Below the pieces are notes generated by a model. That model did no database searches, was not told the origin of the DNA, and saw nothing but the letters and a program-made list of their open reading frames with translations. The position numbers and the translations under genes are program-made. 47,858 bases of DNA. Source: Candidatus Omnitrophota bacterium. Lineage in GTDB: Bacteria > Omnitrophota > Gorgyraeia > Gygaellales > Profunditerraquicolaceae. The DNA lies in assembly GCA_028717245.1 (NCBI GenBank), contig JAQUOD010000010.1:1-47858 (forward strand), given 5' to 3'. Positions 10,383 to 43,677 of the stretch are shown piece after piece. The stretch's first letter is position 1, and each line of letters begins with the position of its first letter.

Positions 10383-11648
10383 ATGAAATACGACATCAAA
10401 GATATCAAACTAGCAAAGAGGGGGGCATTACGTATCGAGTGGGCCAGGCAGGATATGCCGGTATTGCGTTTGATCGAAGAGCGTTTTGCCAAAGAAAAGC
10501 CCTTAAAAGGCGTGCGCCTGGCTGCCTGTTTACATGTTACTACCGAAACGGCAAATTTAGTCAGGGCGCTTAAAGCTGGAGGCGCCGAAGTTTATCTTTG
10601 CGCTTCCAATCCGCTCTCAACCCAGGACGATGTTGCCGCGGCAATGGTAACAGATTTAAAGGTCCCTGTATTTGCAATTAAGGGAGAAGATAATAAAACT
10701 TATTATAAACACATAAAGGCCGTACTAGAAGCCCGCCCGAATATTACTATGGACGACGGCGCGGACTTGGTATCTATGATTCATAAGGAGTGTCAAAGTG
10801 TCAAAGTGTCAAAGTGTCAGGTTATCGGCGGTACGGAAGAGACAACTACCGGGGTAATCAGGTTACGCGCGATGCAAAGAAAAGGCGTGCTCAAATATCC
10901 GATTATTGCGGTTAATGATGCGCAAACCAAGCATTTATTTGATAATCGTTATGGTACCGGTCAGTCTACGCTCGACGGAGTTATCCGCGCCACCAACCGT
11001 TTAATCGCCGGCTTAAACGTGGTCATCTGCGGGTATGGCTGGTGCGGCAAGGGTGCAGCCATGCGCGCATCGGGCCTGGGCGCTAAAGTAATTGTAGTAG
11101 AAGTCGACCCCTTACGGGGCCTGGAAGCAAGCATGGACGGATACCGGGTGATGCCGATCGGCGATGCGGCGAGAATCGGCGATATCTTCATTACCCTTAC
11201 CGGGGATATCAATGTCATCCGCAAGGAGCATTTTAAAACGATGAAGGACGGCGCTATCGTGGCTAACTCCGGGCATTTCAATGTGGAGATAGATATACCG
11301 GCATTGGAAAAGTTAAACAGAAAGAAAAAACGCATCCGCGATTTTGTCGATGAGTATATCATGGCAGACGGCCGCAGGATCTATCTTTTAGGCGAGGGCC
11401 GGCTGATCAATCTGGCCGCTGCCGAAGGCCATCCGGCCCAGGTTATGGATATGTCTTTTGCTAACCAGGCCTTGAGTGCCGAGTATATCAGCAGGCACCA
11501 TAAGAAATTAAAGAGAGAAGTTTACAATGTCCCCGAGGCCATTGACAGGAATATCGCTATGCTCAAACTGAGGTCAATGGGTATTAAAATAGATGTATTG
11601 ACTGAAGAGCAAAAAAGGTATCTTGCCAGTTGGGAGATGGGAACGTAA
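10383..11648 (+). CDS. ahcY: S-adenosylhomocysteine hydrolase
   Basis: Splits S-adenosylhomocysteine to adenosine and homocysteine using tightly bound NAD. Typical blocks are [38 protein letters not shown], the DDGADLV loop, [13 protein letters not shown], the Rossmann segment [14 protein letters not shown] and AHCY-type [10 protein letters not shown]. At 421 residues it is the shorter form. Residues about 136-146 ([12 protein letters not shown]) are encoded by four tandem GTGTCAAA-type octamers, an in-frame repeat intrusion between two conserved motifs. Start ATG 10383 follows GAAGGGAG. Confidence 0.96.
10790..10821 (+). repeat. In-frame tandem octamer array inside ahcY
   Basis: Units GTGTCAAA (10790, 10798, 10806) and GTGTCAGG (10814) follow each other without a gap. 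These are the same words that form the arms of the intergenic palindromes at 27459, 36840, 40462 and 40873. Here only one arm is present and it is translated. Thirty-two bases of an 8-bp unit preserve the flanking frame only because adjacent sequence compensates. Confidence 0.85.
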
Positions 11649-11653
11649 CCTCT

Positions 11654-11711
11654 GGGACAGGTACAATCTTAAATCCGCACCAGGTGCCCGATTGAATCCG
11701 CACCTGGTGCC
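11654..11711 (+). repeat. GCACCAGGTGC dispersed element, copy 1
   Basis: GGGACAGGTACAATCTTAAA is followed by two 11-bp palindromes, GCACCAGGTGC (11677-11687) and GCACCTGGTGC (11700-11710), separated by CCGATTGAATCC. Copies lie at 19023-19080 (opposite orientation) and 39306-39362. It fills the ahcY-pfk gap; the downstream gene starts 15 bases later without a ribosome-binding site. Confidence 0.8.
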
Positions 11712-11726
11712 AAAAACCAAAAAGCT

Positions 11727-24377: not shown

Positions 24378-24406
24378 TTGACCGCTTCAGCGTAGCCGTA
24401 TAATAT
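24378..24406 (+). promoter_or_regulatory. Candidate promoter upstream of the ttcA-like gene
   Basis: TTGACC (24378-24383) lies 17 bp from TAATAT (24401-24406), or 15 bp from TATAAT (24399-24404). Transcription would begin close to the nested palindrome at 24409, placing that palindrome in the 5' leader. Confidence 0.45.
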
Positions 24407-24408
24407 AT

Positions 24409-24486
24409 TAGGGACGGTTCTCAAGCCAAAGCAAGAAGTGTCCCCAAAAAGGGACACTTCTCCGATTAAGTTGAGAACCGTCCCTA
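24409..24486. repeat. Nested double palindrome GGGACGGTTCTC, copy B
   Basis: The outer stem TAGGGACGGTTCTCAA (24409-24424) pairs with TTGAGAACCGTCCCTA (24471-24486). The inner stem AAGTGTCCC (24436-24444) pairs with GGGACACTT (24451-24459). Both stems are identical in sequence to copy A at 14047-14120, while linkers and inner loop differ. As in copy A, a GAGAGG ribosome-binding site and the start codon follow within 20 bases. Confidence 0.85.
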
Positions 24487-24501
24487 TAGAAGAGAGGAGA
24501 A

Positions 24502-25221
24502 ATGGCAGTATTGCAGGGCCCGGAGTTCTATATCTCTAAGAGAGTGGGCAGGGCGATTATGGATTACCAGATGCTCTCTGAAGGCGATAAAATCGCCGTG
24601 GCAGTATCCGGAGGCAAGGATAGCCTGACGCTCCTTCGTCTCTTAGTTGACCGCCAGAAATTCGTGCCCATAAAATATGAAGTATTGGCCGTGCATATAG
24701 ATTTAGGTTATCCGCGTTCCTGCGCCAGGGCATTAACGGGATATTTTAAAAAAATCGGGGTCAAATACCACATTGAAAAGGTAGATATACTCAGGAAGGC
24801 CAGGCGTAAAGATATCAATTGTTTCTGGTGTTCCTGGAACAGAAGGAAGTCCCTTTTTGAGGTAGCAGACAGGTTCGCTTGCAGTAAGGTTGCCCTGGGC
24901 CACCACAAAGACGATATTATAGAAACGATTTTGATGAATTTATTTTTTAACGGCGAGATTTCGGCAATGTCGCCCAGGCAGGTATTGTTCAAAGGAAAGA
25001 TTGTCCTTATCCGGCCCCTTGCCTATGTGGAAGAAGATATGATTAAGCGTTTTGCCGGGCTTGAAAACCTGCCCCATGAAACCTGTGTCTGCCCCAACTC
25101 TATTACTTCAAACCGCACCAGGGTCGCCAATATCATCAAAGGCCTAAGGAAGGTCTCCCCCGACGTCAAGACCAATATTTTTAGAAGCATAAAGCGGATA
25201 AAAAAGGATTATTTGCTTTGA
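24502..25221 (+). CDS. TtcA-like tRNA 2-thiolation PP-loop ATPase
   Basis: A 239-residue member of the TtcA/TtuA family, which thiolates tRNA bases using ATP and an iron-sulphur cluster. The PP-loop AVAVSGGKDSLTLL is at about residues 33-46. The cysteine pair CFWCSW sits near residues 111-116 with RRKSLF after it, and a third cluster cysteine may be in ETCVCPNS. GHHKDDIIETILMN is the second family motif. The target, C32 or another position, cannot be fixed from sequence alone. ATG 24502 follows GAGAGGAG. Confidence 0.85.
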   Translation: MAVLQGPEFYISKRVGRAIMDYQMLSEGDKIAVAVSGGKDSLTLLRLLVDRQKFVPIKYEVLAVHIDLGYPRSCARALTGYFKKIGVKYHIEKVDILRKARRKDINCFWCSWNRRKSLFEVADRFACSKVALGHHKDDIIETILMNLFFNGEISAMSPRQVLFKGKIVLIRPLAYVEEDMIKRFAGLENLPHETCVCPNSITSNRTRVANIIKGLRKVSPDVKTNIFRSIKRIKKDYLL

Positions 25222-27216: not shown

Positions 27217-27459
27217 ATGCATAAGTACCATCTGGAGTTCATCTTAAATATCTTCCCGGCTATACCTATGGAAACCCTAAGGAATTCTTTAGTAGAATTC
27301 GGCGAAAATTTAGAGATTTCGCAAGCCCTACAGGATAACGATATAAAAGGGGAGGACTTTAAGGTATGTATATATACCGATGACCCGACTATCATCTTTG
27401 ATACCTGCGCGCAGTTCGGTAAGATGAAGTCCATAAAAATCGAGGAAAAACACAGTTAG
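27217..27459 (+). CDS. Hypothetical protein, 80 residues
   Basis: Not recognised. It encodes a small acidic protein with no signal peptide or membrane helix. The N-terminal half looks helical (FPAIPMETLRNSLVEFGENL), the second half beta-like (DFKVCIYTDDPTIIFDTCAQFG). It starts two bases after pgeF (TAAAAATGC) and ends in the first base of a phased palindrome. Codon use and tight packing support a real gene. The ferredoxin-like alternation could hint at an ACT-like or degradative adaptor fold, but there is no motif to rely on. Confidence 0.65.
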   Translation: MHKYHLEFILNIFPAIPMETLRNSLVEFGENLEISQALQDNDIKGEDFKVCIYTDDPTIIFDTCAQFGKMKSIKIEEKHS

Positions 27460-27523
27460 TGTCAAAGTGTCAGTGTATCAAAGTGTCAGAGAAAAAACTT
27501 TGATACTCTGATACCTTGACACA
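27459..27523. repeat. Phased palindrome of GTRTCANN octamers, copy 1
   Basis: The left arm has GTGTCAAA (27459), GTGTCAGT (27467), GTATCAAA (27475) and GTGTCAGA (27483). The right arm has TTTGATAC (27499), TCTGATAC (27507) and CTTGACAC (27515). The A-rich loop GAAAAAAC lies between. The first G is also the last base of the preceding stop codon. A proper AAAAGGAG site for the next gene follows 10 bases after the end. Confidence 0.8.
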
Positions 27524-27549
27524 AACGTATCTAAAAGGAGATGATAAAA

Positions 27550-28023
27550 ATGGCCAGGGCATTAGTTATTTACTATTCACGTAGCGGTAACACCAAAAAG
27601 ATGGCAGAATCCGTCGCAGAAGGCATTGAGAAAGAAGGATTAGAAACAGTTATCAAGGAGATAAAAGATGTAAAGGCGGATGAATTACTGCAGTATGAAG
27701 CCATAGCCATAGGTTCGCCTACCTATTATGGGACAATGGCTTATGAAATTAAAAGGCTTTTGGATGAATCGGTCAAATTTCACGGAAAACTTGACGGCAG
27801 AGTCGGGGCGGCATTTTCTTCTTCTGCTAATATCGGCGGCGGCAATGAAACCACTGTTTTAGATATCTTGAAGGCCATGCTTATTCATGGTATGATTATT
27901 CAAGGTGACCCGCAGGGAGACCACTACGGCGCAGTAGCCATTGACGCACCGGATACGCGCTCCACCAAGCAATGCCTGAGATTAGGCGTAAGAGTAGCAA
28001 AATTAGTGAAGAGATTAAAATGA
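27550..28023 (+). CDS. Flavodoxin / WrbA-like flavoprotein
   Basis: A 157-residue flavodoxin-fold protein, probably FMN-binding and acting in electron transfer or quinone reduction. The phosphate loop YYSRSGNTKKMAESVAEG is at residues 7-24. AIAIGSPTYYGTMAYEIKRLLDE is the second flavin loop, and SSSANIGGGNETT the third. Of two ATGs, 27541 touches the AAAAGGAG site, whereas 27550 is spaced correctly, so the latter is used. Its stop overlaps cutA (ATGA). Confidence 0.86.
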   Translation: MARALVIYYSRSGNTKKMAESVAEGIEKEGLETVIKEIKDVKADELLQYEAIAIGSPTYYGTMAYEIKRLLDESVKFHGKLDGRVGAAFSSSANIGGGNETTVLDILKAMLIHGMIIQGDPQGDHYGAVAIDAPDTRSTKQCLRLGVRVAKLVKRLK

Positions 28024-30838: not shown

Positions 30839-31465
30839 GTGGAGCTAAAAATAGAAAATCTGCTTAAGAATTGGCAGAAAAGGAATATCGCCGGCCTTTA
30901 TTGCGGGAATAAAGAAGAGGCAACCGAAAAAATCCTGGAAATTATACCTTTAGCCAGCAGCGTCGGTATTTCCGGTTCAGTAACCCTTGACGCATTAGGC
31001 ATAGTCAAGCGCCTAGAAGGCCGCGGTAATCCGGTATTCAGCCAGTATAAAAACAACATTTCAAAAGAAGAGAGTTTGAATTTAAGGAGGCAGGGCGCGG
31101 CTGCTGATTATTACCTGGCCAGCGCTAATGCCATTTCGCAAAAAGGCGAGCTGGTTTTTTTTAGCGGTTTTGGTAATCGTACGGCAGGTATCTCCTATGC
31201 CAAGAATGTAATTATCGTTGCCGGCGTGAATAAAATCGCGCCGGATATTCAGGAGGCAATAAAACGGGCGAGGTGCTACGCCACGCCCCTGAATTGCAAG
31301 CGGCTTAACTGGAATACGCCTTGTTTTAAAGACGGTATCTGCCGCCAGGAGATCTGTTTATTCCCCGAATATAAAAGGATGTGCTGTCAGGTTTTAATTA
31401 TTGAAGCAGAAGTCACTCCGGACAGGCTGAAGGTAATATTAGTTAATGAAAATTTAGGATTTTAA
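30839..31465 (+). CDS. LUD-domain protein (YkgG/DUF162 family)
   Basis: A 208-residue single-domain LUD protein, related to LutC of lactate utilisation. The N-terminal GNKEEATEKILEII and the GISGSVTLDALGIVKRLEGRGNPVF stretch match the family, as does AGVNKIAPDIQEAIKRA. The C-terminus is cysteine-rich (NCKRLNWNTPCFKDGICRQEICLFP, then CC), which in this subgroup may bind a cluster or metal. No LutA or LutB gene is present, so a lactate role is not implied. GTG 30839 directly follows the pncB stop. Confidence 0.85.
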   Translation: MELKIENLLKNWQKRNIAGLYCGNKEEATEKILEIIPLASSVGISGSVTLDALGIVKRLEGRGNPVFSQYKNNISKEESLNLRRQGAAADYYLASANAISQKGELVFFSGFGNRTAGISYAKNVIIVAGVNKIAPDIQEAIKRARCYATPLNCKRLNWNTPCFKDGICRQEICLFPEYKRMCCQVLIIEAEVTPDRLKVILVNENLGF

Positions 31466-31470
31466 ATGAA

Positions 31471-31862
31471 TCTGCCGCTTTTCTCGCTTACGAGGTAGCG
31501 GGTCCTGCCGCGTGAGCGCCTCTCGCCAAATTTGGCTCGAGGCATCTCCCGCGTCACCCGCAAACACAATATTCTTAGCAGCCAGATGAAAATTCGCCAG
31601 ATTTATTTGTGAGTAAGTAGTTAGAATAAATTTTAGTGTTTTGCTGGAGCGTGCATTAGAAAATCTTTGGCAGGAGTGCACAAGGGATTACGTCGAGCGA
31701 AAGCCGAGTAACCTTACTCTTACCCGGGTAAGGCTCGAGCGACAGCGAGACGTAAACCGCAGTGCACGGCAAAGATTTTCAGCACGCGGAAGCGAAACAC
31801 TAAAATAATAACCCAAGATAGGACCCGCTGCCTCGTAAGAGGGGAAAATCGAGCGGTGCTGT
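31471..31862. repeat. 390-nt foldback element / structured RNA candidate
   Basis: This gap without an ORF folds back on itself through successive arms in order. 31487-31506 pairs with 31820-31839 (20 pairs, one G-U); TTTTAGTGTTTTGCT (31631-31645) with 31791-31805; GCGTGC (31649) with GCACGC (31782); AAAATCTTTG (31660) with CAAAGATTTT (31770); GTGCAC (31676) with GTGCAC (31762); TTACGTC (31688) with GACGTAA (31749); CCTTAC/GTAAGG at the tip. A side hairpin, GCCTC-TC-GCCAAA/TTTGGC-TC-GAGGC, lies at about 31518-31542. No transposase, rRNA, RNase P, tmRNA or 6S motif was recognised. It could be a MITE or a large ncRNA. Confidence 0.6.
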
Positions 31863-31901
31863 GGGAAAGTAAGACAAGACAGCCGCTAATAGGAGAGTAA
31901 G

Positions 31902-32198
31902 ATGTTTGTGTTTGGTAACTTCTTGATCGCCATAGCGAAAATTTTGGATGTAGTGCTAATAATACTCTATTGGCTGATACTGGTGCGCGCGTTAATCAGC
32001 TGGGTAAGCCCGGACCCCTTTAATCCCCTGGTGCAATTTTTATATAAGACTACTGAACCCATACTCTATCCCATCAGGAAAATCCTGCCTGCAGGATTCG
32101 GGATAGATATTTCTCCGATAATTGCATTTTTGGCGATATTGTTTTTCAGGTCATTTTTGGTCAGGACATTAATGGATTTAGCCATAAGATTGAGGTAA
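31902..32198 (+). CDS. YggT-family membrane protein
   Basis: A 98-residue membrane protein of the YGGT family, often found near cell-division or pyrroline reductase genes. Two hydrophobic helices flank the hallmark loop: LIILYWLILVRALISWVSPDPFNPLVQFLYKTTEPILYPIRKILP, then DISPIIAFLAILFFRSFLV. Function is unproven; homologues have been linked to osmotic stress and envelope assembly. ATG 31902 follows AGGAGAG, just downstream of the foldback element. Confidence 0.9.
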   Translation: MFVFGNFLIAIAKILDVVLIILYWLILVRALISWVSPDPFNPLVQFLYKTTEPILYPIRKILPAGFGIDISPIIAFLAILFFRSFLVRTLMDLAIRLR

Positions 32199-35967: not shown

Positions 35968-36838
35968 CCCTTTGTTTAAACCCGGGCATACTGCCTGCGC
36001 AGGTTGCGGGCAGTCTTTAGGGGCGCGTTTAGTCATCGAGGCTGCCGGCAGTAATACTGTGGTGGTCAATAACACCGGATGCCTGGAGGTATTTTCTACC
36101 AAGTATCCCGAGACAGCTTGGAATGTGCCTTGGATTCATTCCCTTTTTGAGAATGCCGCAGCAGTCGCCTCCGGAGTAGAGGCAGCCCTTATCTATTTAG
36201 GCAAAAAAGATACTACTAATGTGATTGCCCAGGCAGGCGACGGCGGCACAGCCGATATCGGCCTGCAGGCGCTATCCGGGATGTTAGAGCGCGGGCATGA
36301 TATCTTGTATGTCTGTTATGACAACGAGGCCTATATGAATACCGGCGTGCAGCGCAGCGGCCTGACGCCATTTCATACCAATACTACTACCAGCCCCACG
36401 GGCAGCAAATCTCAGGGCAATATCCGTCCCAAAAAACCCATGCCGGAGATCGCCAATGCCCACGGCATACCTTATGTGGCTACTGCTTCTGTCGGATTTC
36501 CCCAGGACCTGCAGCGTAAGGTAAAAAAAGCCATATCCATCAAAGGCCCTAAATATATCCAGATACACGTGCCCTGTCCTCTGGGCTGGCGCCATGAGAC
36601 TAACCTGACCTATCAAATCGCTAAGCTTGCGGTAGAGACGGGTTTATATCCTTTGATTGAATACGAAAATGGCCAATTGACAGCGGTGCGTAAGGTTACA
36701 CAGCCTAAGCCCGTAGAGGAATACCTTAAACCCCAGGGCAGGTTTAAACATATATTAGCTAACCCTGAAGAAATAAGGAAGATTCAGGAGATCGCGGATA
36801 ATAACATTAAGAAATATAATCTAAAAGCCGAAACTTAA
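35957..36838 (+). CDS. porB: 2-oxoacid:ferredoxin oxidoreductase, beta subunit
   Basis: The 293-residue beta subunit binds the diphosphate of thiamine and a proximal [4Fe-4S] cluster. Cluster cysteines are in GHTACAGCGQSL and later NTGCLEVF. The ThDP-binding AQAGDGGTADIGLQALSG carries the GDG and its downstream YDNEAYMNTGVQRS motif. THTHR-like loops (HTNTTTSPTGSKSQGN) fit PorB of the pyruvate clade. It completes the gamma-delta-alpha-beta operon. The stop is followed directly by an octamer palindrome. Confidence 0.94.
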   Translation: MENNPLFKPGHTACAGCGQSLGARLVIEAAGSNTVVVNNTGCLEVFSTKYPETAWNVPWIHSLFENAAAVASGVEAALIYLGKKDTTNVIAQAGDGGTADIGLQALSGMLERGHDILYVCYDNEAYMNTGVQRSGLTPFHTNTTTSPTGSKSQGNIRPKKPMPEIANAHGIPYVATASVGFPQDLQRKVKKAISIKGPKYIQIHVPCPLGWRHETNLTYQIAKLAVETGLYPLIEYENGQLTAVRKVTQPKPVEEYLKPQGRFKHILANPEEIRKIQEIADNNIKKYNLKAET

Positions 36839-36839
36839 T

Positions 36840-36910
36840 GTGTCAAGGTGTCAATGTATCAGAGTGTCAAAGAAAAACTTTGATACCTTGATACTTTGAT
36901 ACTATGACAC
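36840..36910. repeat. Phased palindrome of GTRTCANN octamers, copy 2
   Basis: Each arm is exactly four octamers plus a G. Left: GTGTCAAG, GTGTCAAT, GTATCAGA, GTGTCAAA (36840-36872). Right, read on the opposite strand: GTGTCATA, GTATCAAA, GTATCAAG, GTATCAAA (36878-36910). The loop is AAAAA. It is the most regular member of the class and fills the porB-ferritin gap. Confidence 0.85.
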
Positions 36911-36930
36911 CAATTAAAGGAGGTGTAAAA

Positions 36931-37410
36931 ATGGGTAAACAAGCAAGGGCAATAGTGGAATTGAGTTTAAAGGAACTGGTCAAGGACCTGAACAAGGCAT
37001 ATGCGGATGAGTGGTTAGCATTCTATCTTTATACGTATATGGCACTAATGGTTTCAGGCAAGGCCTACGAAGATATACAGGAGTTTTTGAACAAGATCGC
37101 TAAAGATGAATTAGAACATGCGCAGGAAGTCGCGGATATGATTATTAAGTTAGGTGGCATACCCATTGCCAATCCTATGGAACTGGAAAAGAACGCCAAC
37201 AGTCCCTATATGATGCCGCCAAAGAACAGTTCCGATATCAACAGGATTATACGCATAGTCTTAGAAGCTGAAGCAGGCGCGATCGATGTCTACAATAAAA
37301 TCGCCAAGAAGACTTTAGGCAAAGACAACGTTACTTATCAGTTAGTCACGCATATATTATCCGAAGAAGTAGACCACGAAGAGACGTTTGAAAATCTATT
37401 AGAGAGATAA
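36931..37410 (+). CDS. Ferritin-like diiron protein
   Basis: A 159-residue four-helix protein of the ferritin-like/bacterioferritin-related superfamily. Diiron ligands are in the pattern YADEWLAFYLYTYMA, KDELEHAQEVADMI (ExxH), LEAEAGAIDVYNKIA and LSEEVDHEETFENLLE (ExxH). It may store iron or scavenge peroxide, a sensible partner for the oxygen-sensitive Por enzyme. ATG 36931 has AAAGGAGGTG upstream; the longer frame to 36904 runs into palindrome DNA. Confidence 0.85.
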   Translation: MGKQARAIVELSLKELVKDLNKAYADEWLAFYLYTYMALMVSGKAYEDIQEFLNKIAKDELEHAQEVADMIIKLGGIPIANPMELEKNANSPYMMPPKNSSDINRIIRIVLEAEAGAIDVYNKIAKKTLGKDNVTYQLVTHILSEEVDHEETFENLLER

Positions 37411-39288: not shown

Positions 39289-39305
39289 CCATTTCTTATA
39301 GAAAA

Positions 39306-39362
39306 GGGACAGGTACAATCTCAACTTCGCACCAGGTGCCCGATTAGCTTCGCACCAGGTGC
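39306..39362 (+). repeat. GCACCAGGTGC dispersed element, copy 3
   Basis: GGGACAGGTACAATCTCAAC, then GCACCAGGTGC (39329-39339), CCGATTAGCTTC and a second GCACCAGGTGC (39352-39362). Compared with copy 1 the second palindrome has the central base flipped. It lies between the two divergent promoters, ending 12 bases before the gspF -35. Confidence 0.8.
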
Positions 39363-39374
39363 TAAATTTTGAGC

Positions 39375-39440: not shown

Positions 39441-40460
39441 ATGGTCATACCCTTTACACGCCAGCTATATACCCTTATAAAGACAGGTATCCCGCTTTTA
39501 AAGGCCCTGCAGATTATCTCTACGCAGCTACAGCCGGGCAGGTTCAAAAAGACTGTGGAAGGGGTAATACAGAATATCCAGGAAGGCAAGAGTTTTTCCG
39601 AGGCCTTAGGCAGCGCACCCAGGGTATTTTCCTCCTTATACATCAACATGATCAAGGCAGCGGAGGTAAGCGGCAACCTGACTGAAATACTTAAAGAACT
39701 ATCCCAGCACCTCGTCGAGAGCCGTAAGATTAACCGCCAGGTCCAGGCTGCCTTTATGTACCCCATCCTTGTTTTAATCATTGCTACCGTTATTCTGGTG
39801 GGCCTGCTGATGTTTGTCTTACCGGTCTTTATGCGCATATTTGAAGATATGGGCGGCAGCCTTCCTCCGACCACCCTGTTCCTTATTAACTTAAGCAAAT
39901 TCCTCCAGCATTGGGGCTGGATTTTTCCGGTTTTATTCGCTATTCTCTCCGTTATAGTTTTTCTGATGTCCCGCCGGCCGGCTGGTAAACAGATTATCAA
40001 TAATTTTCTCTGGCGTGTGCCTTTATTCGGCAAGCTGACTAAGATTATGGAGATAGGCAGGTTCTGCCGTACCCTGGGCACATTATTATCGTCGGGCGTG
40101 ACATTGACAAAAGCCATGGAGGTATTGTATGAGACTACCTCCGCAGTCCTGCTGCAGAATGCCTTAGAGGACATCCGTTATCAGGTAGAGCAAGGTAAGA
40201 GTCTTTCTGGCGCAATGGAGGAAACAGGATTATTCCCGTTGACCTTGGTCAGGATGATCCAGGTAGGAGAGGAGAGCGGAAAAATCGCCGATTTATTCTT
40301 AGAAATAGCGCATGACTATGAAGAAGAGGTATCATTTGCCGTTACCGGCCTATTATCCTTACTTGAGCCGGTTTTGATTGTAGTTATGGGCGCAATCGTA
40401 GGTTTTATCGTTGTCTCCTTATTCTTCCCCATCTTTACCTTAAGCGGTATGGTTAAATAA
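39441..40460 (+). CDS. Type II secretion / type IV pilus inner-membrane platform protein (GspF/PilC-like)
   Basis: A 339-residue polytopic membrane protein that organises pseudopilus assembly. Two T2SSF domains are visible: residues 1-120 (FTRQLYTLIKTGIPLLKALQ ... MIKAAEVSGNLTEIL) and 205-330 (FCRTLGTLLSSGVTLTKAMEVL ... MIQVGEESGKIADLF). Each is followed by hydrophobic helices, near 110-135, 150-172 and 305-330. It lacks the 50-60 residue N-terminal extension of typical PilC. ATG 39441 follows AAGGAG. GspE and GspG partners are not in the window. Confidence 0.92.
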   Translation: MVIPFTRQLYTLIKTGIPLLKALQIISTQLQPGRFKKTVEGVIQNIQEGKSFSEALGSAPRVFSSLYINMIKAAEVSGNLTEILKELSQHLVESRKINRQVQAAFMYPILVLIIATVILVGLLMFVLPVFMRIFEDMGGSLPPTTLFLINLSKFLQHWGWIFPVLFAILSVIVFLMSRRPAGKQIINNFLWRVPLFGKLTKIMEIGRFCRTLGTLLSSGVTLTKAMEVLYETTSAVLLQNALEDIRYQVEQGKSLSGAMEETGLFPLTLVRMIQVGEESGKIADLFLEIAHDYEEEVSFAVTGLLSLLEPVLIVVMGAIVGFIVVSLFFPIFTLSGMVK

Positions 40461-40461
40461 T

Positions 40462-40520
40462 GTATCAAAGTGTCAAAGAAAAAACTTTGATACTTTTGAC
40501 ACCCTGACACTATGACACTA
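40462..40520. repeat. Phased palindrome of GTRTCANN octamers, copy 3
   Basis: The left arm has GTATCAAA and GTGTCAAA (40462-40477). The right arm, after AAAAAA, has CTTTGATAC, TTTTGACAC, CCTGACAC and TATGACAC, so it is two units longer than the left. The gspI-like start codon ATG 40512 lies within the last unit of the right arm. Confidence 0.8.
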
Positions 40521-40871
40521 ATTATCAGAAAGGGTTTTACTTTAGTTGAAGTCCTACTTGCCATATTTATCCTGGGATTAGGCATGGTTACTTCTTATAA
40601 CCTTTTCCCCCTTGGCTTGCAATCCTTATCCTATGCCCGCCGGCTTAATGAGGTTTATTTCCTTGCTGAAAAGAAAATGGAAGAACTGAAGTCACAGCCG
40701 AACATAGGGCTTGGCGAGACAAGCGGTAAAGAAAAAGATTTGCTCTGGACTATCTATACTAAATCCTTGAAATTACAGGAAGGCGTAGAGTTGATTTATG
40801 TTGAATTAGATATAGACCTTATTTTTATGGGTAGGACAGAAAGACAGAGGTTCGTGACTTATCTTCCTTAA
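40512..40871 (+). CDS. Type II secretion minor pseudopilin (GspI/PilV-like)
   Basis: A 119-residue prepilin-like protein. The class III leader ends in IIRKG, followed by FTLVEVLLAIFILGLGMVTSYNLF, the conserved N-methylation helix with Glu5. PilD would cleave between Gly and Phe. The globular part (EKKMEELKSQP and the following beta region) resembles GspI/PilV. ATG 40512 falls inside a palindrome arm and has no Shine-Dalgarno; no better start exists because the leader must be short. Confidence 0.88.
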   Translation: MTLIIRKGFTLVEVLLAIFILGLGMVTSYNLFPLGLQSLSYARRLNEVYFLAEKKMEELKSQPNIGLGETSGKEKDLLWTIYTKSLKLQEGVELIYVELDIDLIFMGRTERQRFVTYLP

Positions 40872-40872
40872 G

Positions 40873-40943
40873 GTATCAGGGTGTCAATGTATCAAAGTGT
40901 CAAAGAAAAAACTTTGATACTCTGATACCTGATACTTTGATAC
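40873..40943. repeat. Phased palindrome of GTRTCANN octamers, copy 4
   Basis: Left arm GTATCAGG, GTGTCAAT, GTATCAAA, GTGTCAAA (40873-40904), loop of A residues, right arm with TTTGATAC, TCTGATAC, CTGATAC and TTTGATAC. One right-arm unit is a base short, showing that arms drift independently. It separates the GspI-like and GspK-like genes. Confidence 0.8.
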
Positions 40944-40959
40944 AACTTCGGTATTAATT

Positions 40960-43677
40960 ATGAAAGAAAAGGGTCAGGCGCTGATTTTGGTAGTGACTAT
41001 CCTGGGTATGTTTTTCATGCTCCTTACGGCTTTCTTCGTCCTTTCGCAGGCTGAGAGGACCGCCGCCTTACGCCACCTTGACAGTTTAAGGGCCCAATAT
41101 ATTGCCGAGGCAGGGGTTGCCTACGCCCATAAAGTTATAGCATTAGACGAAACCGCTAATATCATTGATTCCCTTGAAGATTTGAGTTTCGATAATTTTC
41201 AGGGTGAGGATGCGGATTTAGACGGCGATGGTAAGAATGAAAGTAAGGCCTTTAACGTAGCAAACAGGGAGGGTAATGCCTTCGGGCTTTTTAGCGTCAG
41301 GGTTTCTGACGAGGCTGCGCGCCTTAACCTTAATAGCGTTGCCGCAGAGAATTTAAGCCGGCTTTTTTCCGACTTAGGCATAAATTCTTCTAAAGCAAGC
41401 GCCCTTATATCCCGAAGGCCTTTTAATGCCAAAGAAGGGGCAGGTTCAATCCTGGGGGCAAAGGATTTTGCCGTAGCAAAAGATTATCTAACTATCTATT
41501 CCAAGGACCTGGAGATAGACTTGAGTGATAATAGGAGGGTGTATTTGAATAGTTCCCAGCCGCGCATTATTCTAGAGGCATTTTTAAACGCCGGTATAAA
41601 GGATGCTTATCAGAAGGCGGCAAACCTAAAAGATGCCTCTGATATTGATTTTGCCCAGACCCTTCTGGATAGATTCAGCCAGGCCTTCGTCCCTTCCGGG
41701 CTTTCGGAAGCCGGCAGTTGGCGTAAGAAGGATGGTTACTACGAAGCGAACGGTGATAGTGACAACCCGGGTAAATTTATCTGGTCTAACCTGCCTGTTG
41801 GAGATGGGAAGTATTTCTGTTTTTTTTATGGCACCCGGAGCGCGGATATGGTGGCGGCAGAGCCCCTGACGATGTCAGGAGAAGGATTAAATGAAATGGT
41901 CGAGGTAGAGGGAGGCAGCCTTGAGCTTTCCCTGAAGCCCATAAAAAACCAAATCTGTAAATTTTCCCATATTGAGTTAGTCAGTCCGGATTCTAAACAG
42001 GGGTTGAGTAGGAGGGTGGTTACGGGCACTGAAGCTTTAGTGATCAATGAGTTGATGATTCAGCCTGCGAAGGAAGTATTGGCCAGTAATCCGGGTTCTA
42101 TCGGAATTGGGCAGATCCAGAAATGGGTTTTAAGCGGCATTGAGCCAGGGTATTATTATGTGGCCGTCCAGGCACAGGTAAAGGGCGGCTTGGTAGGCGA
42201 TGTCTATATCTTAGGGGGAATAGGCGATAGCTTGCGCGATGGCGATTATTTTCCTGACACCGTAGAAGTAGGAGGTAACGGCACGATTACTATCGAAATC
42301 AGGAATAACTCGCTGGAAGGAGCCAGCTTCAAAGGAATAAGAATCCTGCAGGAACCGGACGGAGAATTTATTGAGGTGCTGAATCTTTCGCCCCGGGTAA
42401 TTAGTTTGGATGATTTTTCAGTGGAGGCCTACACGCTAGGAGGCGAATTAGTCCCGGGTTGGCCGGCCCGTATACCTAAAAATACGGATATTGAGCCTTA
42501 TCAACACTTAGTTTTAGCGGTGGATAATAATGATGTTGCGCCCACCCCTAAGAATTTGCGGTCAAACAAAATTTCTTTCCAGGGCATCTATAAAGTTAAT
42601 GCCGTGGGGCTTCTTTTTGATGAAACCGCTAAAAACATAGATAAGGGATCAGACCTCCTGCCTGATGCGGGAGGCAGGGTTATTTTGAAAGACAGCCGCG
42701 GTGAAAGGATAGATGCAATAGAATACCAGAGTACGCAGCTTAAGGCATTTACAAGTTTAGAACGGCCTGACCCCAGCGCCAAGAGCGATACGGATGGCAA
42801 CGGATTTTTTGACGGCTGGTATCTTAGTGAAAGCCAAACCTTATCCACGCCCGGCGCGGCTAATGAAAATTCCGGGATGTATACGCGCGATGAAAAAACC
42901 GGCAAGCTGATCAAAAATAATATTAGCCAGGTTAAAGTGCTCAATCAGCCTTTTTCCGGATTGGCCGAGGCAGAGGAATTGTCTTCCGGAGAAAACTGGA
43001 AAAAATTTTCCGTTGAGGATATTGCCCGTATGGCCGACCACTTTAGTTATGAAGCTATTCCCTTGGATATGTACAGCTATGAAAAACCGGGGGGCTCAGA
43101 TACCGTTGGGACATGGGAATTTTCGGCAGTCCCCAAAGGCAGTTACTCATTAAGCGTATTGACCGATGATGCGGATTTAGAGGGTAAGGAAATCCGGGTA
43201 GCAGTAAAGACTGTTGCTACGGAAGAATTCAATGACCCTGAATCGCTCTTGTTTATTTCAGGAAGCGCTTTTTACGGCGAAATAGAAATTCCGGGGGATC
43301 CCGGGATTTTGCAAATACAAATTACAGCCGGTTCTGAAAAAATAAAATCCGGTTTAAAACAAATACGGCTTGAGCCTGTTTTCTCTGTGGCAGGCCGGGT
43401 GAATATCAATACGGCGAAGAAAGAGGTTTTACGCAGCATACTTACTTCCGAGGCTCTCACGGATGTTATTTTGAGCAACCGGCCACTGGGTATTAAAGAT
43501 AGCCGTAAATTGGGAGTGGGGGATTTATTTCTTTTAAACCCCGGCTTTATCCCTTTCTGCAATTACTTCACGGTTAAATCTGATGTCTACGAAATATCCT
43601 CCCGCGGGGATTTTTCTCCGCAAGGTAAAACCCTTGCCTACCAGACTATCCGCACTGTTATAGAGCGGGGAGATTAA
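40960..43677 (+). CDS. Giant GspK-like pseudopilin with a lamin-tail-like insert
   Basis: A 905-residue protein, against 320-350 for usual GspK. The start MKEKGQALILVVTILGMFFMLLTAFFV is a type IV pilin-like helix. QYIAEAGVAYAHK and EAARLNLNSVAAENL match GspK, as does the C-terminal helix-hairpin-helix region GRVNINTAKKEVLRSIL ... YEISSRGDF. Between about residues 460 and 640 lies a lamin-tail-like domain (EPDGEFIEVLNLSPRVISLDDF ... SKSDTDGNGFFDGWYLSE). Acidic DADLDGDGKNE and DTDGNGFFD loops look calcium-binding. ATG 40960 lacks a Shine-Dalgarno. Confidence 0.8.
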   Translation: MKEKGQALILVVTILGMFFMLLTAFFVLSQAERTAALRHLDSLRAQYIAEAGVAYAHKVIALDETANIIDSLEDLSFDNFQGEDADLDGDGKNESKAFNVANREGNAFGLFSVRVSDEAARLNLNSVAAENLSRLFSDLGINSSKASALISRRPFNAKEGAGSILGAKDFAVAKDYLTIYSKDLEIDLSDNRRVYLNSSQPRIILEAFLNAGIKDAYQKAANLKDASDIDFAQTLLDRFSQAFVPSGLSEAGSWRKKDGYYEANGDSDNPGKFIWSNLPVGDGKYFCFFYGTRSADMVAAEPLTMSGEGLNEMVEVEGGSLELSLKPIKNQICKFSHIELVSPDSKQGLSRRVVTGTEALVINELMIQPAKEVLASNPGSIGIGQIQKWVLSGIEPGYYYVAVQAQVKGGLVGDVYILGGIGDSLRDGDYFPDTVEVGGNGTITIEIRNNSLEGASFKGIRILQEPDGEFIEVLNLSPRVISLDDFSVEAYTLGGELVPGWPARIPKNTDIEPYQHLVLAVDNNDVAPTPKNLRSNKISFQGIYKVNAVGLLFDETAKNIDKGSDLLPDAGGRVILKDSRGERIDAIEYQSTQLKAFTSLERPDPSAKSDTDGNGFFDGWYLSESQTLSTPGAANENSGMYTRDEKTGKLIKNNISQVKVLNQPFSGLAEAEELSSGENWKKFSVEDIARMADHFSYEAIPLDMYSYEKPGGSDTVGTWEFSAVPKGSYSLSVLTDDADLEGKEIRVAVKTVATEEFNDPESLLFISGSAFYGEIEIPGDPGILQIQITAGSEKIKSGLKQIRLEPVFSVAGRVNINTAKKEVLRSILTSEALTDVILSNRPLGIKDSRKLGVGDLFLLNPGFIPFCNYFTVKSDVYEISSRGDFSPQGKTLAYQTIRTVIERGD

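Follow-up and report, generated by a model that had tools for sequence, protein, structure and literature searches.

Is the 390-nt foldback between the LUD and YggT genes of this Candidatus Omnitrophota genome a mobile element or a large structured RNA? Both readings were offered by the original prediction, which concerned part of the window (the whole stretch of DNA analyzed, 47,858 nt). The LUD gene ends at 31465 and the YggT start codon lies at 31902, and the feature fills the gap between them, with repeated sequence spanning approximately 31463-31889, slightly past the 31471-31862 initially noted. Folding of 31460-31875 gave -180.4 kcal/mol for the + strand (z = -10.1, with none of 100 shuffles reaching this value) and -163.3 kcal/mol for the - strand (z = -7.7). 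The foldback is real and lies far beyond chance on both strands. Two pairs of inverted arms are present: 31479-31506 with 31820-31847 (86% complementary) and 31630-31654 with 31782-31806 (84% complementary).

Screening of the feature against the Rfam 15 covariance models produced zero matches, even at E ≤ 10, in agreement with the initial impression that it carries no known large RNA signature, and the only Rfam matches inside the window were tRNAs. A pattern scan of the LUD-YggT gap for promoters and terminators found none above chance, and the LUD-YggT synteny is not conserved in relatives.

Modular organization of the foldback

Rather than one element or a single-copy RNA gene, the feature is a composite of hairpin modules that recur in the genome. 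Searching its own genome (G000) with the feature returned 53 matches, which sort into modules in the order of an A shell around hairpin B, core C, and inverted A/E- and D-type end fragments:

31463-31497, no strand assigned: left arm, A-type shell (AAATGAATCTGCCGCTTTTCTCGCTTACGAGG); copies that take in hairpin B lie at G000 C17:338-443 and C3:9605-9704 (96-98% identical)
31498-31564, no strand assigned: B hairpin (TAGCGGGTCCT...CACCCGC), ~67-69 nt, lying inside the A shell here and occurring by itself elsewhere
31565-31608, no strand assigned: right A-shell arm in degraded form (...CGCCAGATTTATTTG), which is the A/T-rich insert; alignable to the right arms of complete A-B elements
31626-31811, + strand: core element C, a long hairpin; 9 genome copies by covariance model, and found in 63 of 285 phylum genomes
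31812-31840, - strand: inverted A/E-type left-arm fragment (reverse complement CTTACGAGGCAGCGGGTCCTATCTTGGGTT); a match to the C6:5000 left arm
31841-31889, no strand assigned: right-hand end of a D-type foldback whose left half is missing; joined to the A/E arm, it stops a few bases upstream of the start codon of YggT

Complete A-B elements on contigs C17 and C3 match the left third of the feature along its full length and are almost identical to it. Approximately 20 genome matches to the B hairpin were found at E < 1e-12, including some without the A shell (C1:334889-334957, 99%). Both the side hairpin (~31498-31564) and the A/T-rich insert, which had been predicted to lie only on the left, are present as described. 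On the right, the inner TCTTGGGT is common to the 31812-31840 fragment and the C6:5000 element, and the window's own left arm is without it. The D-type end is 100% identical over 44 nt to the C12:13578 region and 94% identical over 49 nt to the C6:5267 region, both of which hold complete D elements. Since the left side represents an A-B element and the right side an inverted A/E arm with a D end, the outer stem is formed by related arms of different elements in inverted orientation. Thus, the earlier claim of a single foldback pairing over the entire length is not borne out, because several repeated units are involved and the outer arms come from different elements. Shell motifs are six times enriched near C copies, and some C copies hold further inserted hairpins.

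Core C: conserved pairing with changing sequence

Core C measures 180 nt in the feature and ~160-240 nt across the family. Its outer stem varies, its inner stems are conserved, and it contains internal loops of the GGA/GGA and ATTA/A types. A sequence search identified four further copies elsewhere in the genome (87-97% identical), and a covariance model was built on 26 copies drawn from this genome and its relatives. In these 26 copies, 26 of the 46 pairs were changed on both sides. Double-change cells numbered 116 against 37 in shuffled alignments, with 0 of 500 shuffles reaching 116, although these shuffles do not keep relatedness. Sliding the pair partners in the alignment destroys pairing, a control that favours the structure because the latter was derived from the same sequences. 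Across a set of 92 copies, outer-stem positions were occupied by each of the four Watson-Crick pair types. The C copies within one genome have a common outer stem and differing flanks, and the outer stems of C subfamilies are mutually unrelated in sequence, each still complementary.

The model gave 9 copies in this genome. Many relatives of the 63 positive among the 285 sampled Omnitrophota genomes have at least 9-10 copies, with no more than 10 candidates scored per genome. Among the 80 matches listed from a GTDB pattern scan, all are titled Omnitrophota or Omnitrophica except one ("bacterium"). Searches of viral, phage and plasmid collections revealed no core C, and nothing relevant was found in the literature searched for Omnitrophota repeats. 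Core C is apparently an undescribed mobile hairpin family found across Omnitrophota. A C copy of another genus lies, oppositely oriented, right at the LUD stop codon (G023 C61:2684-2847), with its end overlapping the last codons of the gene.

Mobility and insertion sites

Comparison of related genomes indicates that core C is mobile. In genus g13, one site carries a 174/175-nt C element in two genomes (G107 and G175) and a short empty gap in 16 congeners; a second site in this genus is empty in two other relatives. The many genomic copies, found in both orientations, and the empty sites bear out the original description of a foldback element. Most copies (69 of 90) are essentially outside called ORFs, and among the copies clear of ORFs the orientations are ++ 18, -- 30, +- 7 and -+ 8. 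The orientation of C copies is not tied to the transcription of genes.

Congeners have differing inserts of ~185 to 372 nt (L274, L288, L294, L303 and L313) at a single intergenic site that precedes a helicase-like gene; this suggests a repeated insertion spot.

Core C shares with classical bacterial MITEs its small size, non-coding nature, inverted repeats, mobility, many copies and empty sites. MITEs are deletion derivatives of DNA transposons, mobilized by a transposase that binds double-stranded terminal inverted repeats. However, the terminal stem of core C differs between subfamilies, with only complementarity conserved, and the internal loops are conserved within a covarying stem. At the edges of 89 C copies, direct repeats were no commoner than in shuffled flank pairs, and no ORF was carried between the element halves in 16 strict matches (a small sample). 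The combination that had been expected of a MITE, namely many copies, target-site duplications and a lack of covariation, was found only in part, as the copies are present, the duplication signal is absent and the covariation is very strong. The classical MITE reading, already disfavoured, appears highly improbable.

Selection on DNA or RNA

The very strong covariation would also be expected of a mobile structured non-coding RNA, in which the + strand would be transcribed and bound by protein, and the copies spread by an RNA-dependent or RNA-guided enzyme, comparable to guide-like RNAs and ORF-less introns. The strand-specific tandem G.A and ATTA/A loops point in the same direction, as does the greater stability of the + strand fold in 82 of 90 C copies. 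In + strand folds, GA/GA loops outnumbered TC/TC loops 196 to 1, a count that partly reflects the favour of the energy model for G.A mismatches.

The pair states of 92 C copies comprised 3848 Watson-Crick, 80 G.U, 55 A.C and 141 other cells. The small G.U excess over A.C (p = 0.04) is consistent with an RNA role, which core C may therefore still have. In contrast, tRNA stems of the same loci (24 genes, a small sample) had 21 G.U and 2 A.C, corresponding to a G.U/A.C ratio of 10.5, compared with 1.45 in C copies (Fisher p = 0.002). Under RNA selection, G.U would be tolerated on just one of the strands. The near-symmetry thus agrees with selection, or repair, acting on the DNA; with wobbles both rare and nearly symmetric, DNA-level hairpin selection is a better fit than RNA. 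Thus, the initial argument from the kept G-U pairs to an RNA fails. A folded single DNA strand would reconcile the wobble symmetry with the strand polarity of the loops.

The orientation of C copies unrelated to gene direction, the lack of an Rfam match and the lack of a promoter-like site above chance also argue against the mobile RNA. Of 16 genomes, most of them rich in copies, 13 lack reverse transcriptase and all 16 lack IS110, which counts against the same explanation and led to the rejection of both enzymes as general C partners. On balance, we consider a mobile RNA of this kind unlikely. The more specific version, in which core C elements are Omnitrophota mobile structured RNAs whose transcribed strand would use tandem G.A motifs to guide or permit its own insertion through some enzyme, seems slightly less likely again. 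The large structured RNA of the original prediction, understood as an RNA gene, was not upheld by the same observations, since the feature is multi-copy, lacks an Rfam match, has an orientation independent of neighbouring genes and shows G.U hardly above A.C. Core C is a hairpin-type mobile element, neither a classical TIR/TSD MITE nor a plain RNA gene.

Comparison with REPINs and search for a partner enzyme

REPINs are extragenic hairpins in which compensatory changes are common (PMC3116915), and the strand-specific binding of TnpAREP to folded single strands relies on mismatches (PMC8266576). Core C resembles REPIN/REP elements as a high-copy, extragenic, non-autonomous hairpin with compensatory changes, and could in principle represent REPINs in the strict sense, mobilized by the RAYT transposases of these genomes. 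The presence of Y1 (HUH) genes in 17 of the 18 genomes with at least 9 C copies is in line with this reading. However, Y1 genes were detected in 53 of the 63 genomes with core C and also in 179 of the 222 without it, and one genome with at least 10 C copies has zero Y1 (G294, 89% complete). Y1 presence does not track core C. No Y1 motif was found beside C in 100 C-bearing loci of up to 8 kb.

This genome encodes two RAYT-like Y1 genes, at G000 C2:240302-240643 (L095) and C2:232362-232697 (L096). Both are flanked by palindromes of non-C families, which are also seen in the window (GGGACGGTTCTCAA... at 24402-24502; GCACCTGGTGC at 11648-11723 and 39303-39369), and these genes with their flanking palindromes are likely true REP/RAYT pairs. 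Linkage of core C to a RAYT was not found: other palindromes flank the genome's own RAYTs, none lies near C in the 100 loci, and presence is unassociated. Core C also differs from REPIN/REP in being longer (~160-240 nt), with several G.A internal loops, a conserved inner core and a free outer stem, as well as in having no RAYT beside its copies and no GTAG tag recognized by eye. Since the RAYT-association test failed, we did not file core C as a REPIN, and mobilization as strict-sense REPINs has very little probability.

Integron attC sites are single-strand hairpins handled by IntI, which recognizes their shape and extrahelical bases rather than the stem sequence. Core C would be similar to attC in its proposed mode, with recognition of hairpin shape and not of stem sequence. 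Unlike attC, it has a conserved core sequence and copies scattered among chromosomal genes, and no cassette array or integrase was seen.

Proposed mechanism

The feature is probably a pile-up of non-autonomous mobile hairpin elements, recognized as folded single-stranded DNA, in one Omnitrophota intergenic gap. According to this model, one strand, when single-stranded (for example, during replication), would fold into a hairpin. A trans-acting enzyme would read the hairpin shape and the strand-specific G.A and asymmetric loops, not the stem sequence, then cut the hairpin and insert it mostly where genes stay unbroken. Insertion may sometimes occur into or beside existing hairpins, producing nested composites. 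Such a mode would parallel that of REP/REPIN elements mobilized by RAYT and of attC sites handled by IntI. The most plausible candidate enzyme would be a Y1 (HUH) transposase acting in trans, although no link between the two was found.

Repeats in the genome and implications

The genome contains several further palindrome families. Within the window, palindromes of repeated short units (GTGTCAAAGTGTCAATG... pairing ...TTTGATACTTTGATAC) are located in gaps between co-directed genes at 27446-27553, 36834-36934, 40445-40536 and 40867-40962. Repeats of ~125 nt are found at contig ends (G000 C10:1-127, C3:1-124, C12:1-128 and C17:10377-10503), and this repeat probably broke the assembly.

In a 404-kb sample of genome stretches, about a quarter of the genome, repeats of all kinds occupied 17.8 kb, including ~10.3 kb outside ORFs. 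This corresponds to an estimated ~29% of the sampled non-ORF DNA, with foldbacks prominent among the repeats, which thus shape the intergenic regions of this genome. In core C, a poorly studied phylum has kept a hairpin shape while the stem sequence turned over almost completely. The family also cautions against taking strong covariation by itself as proof of RNA, and represents a natural data set on the recognition and movement of single-strand hairpins.
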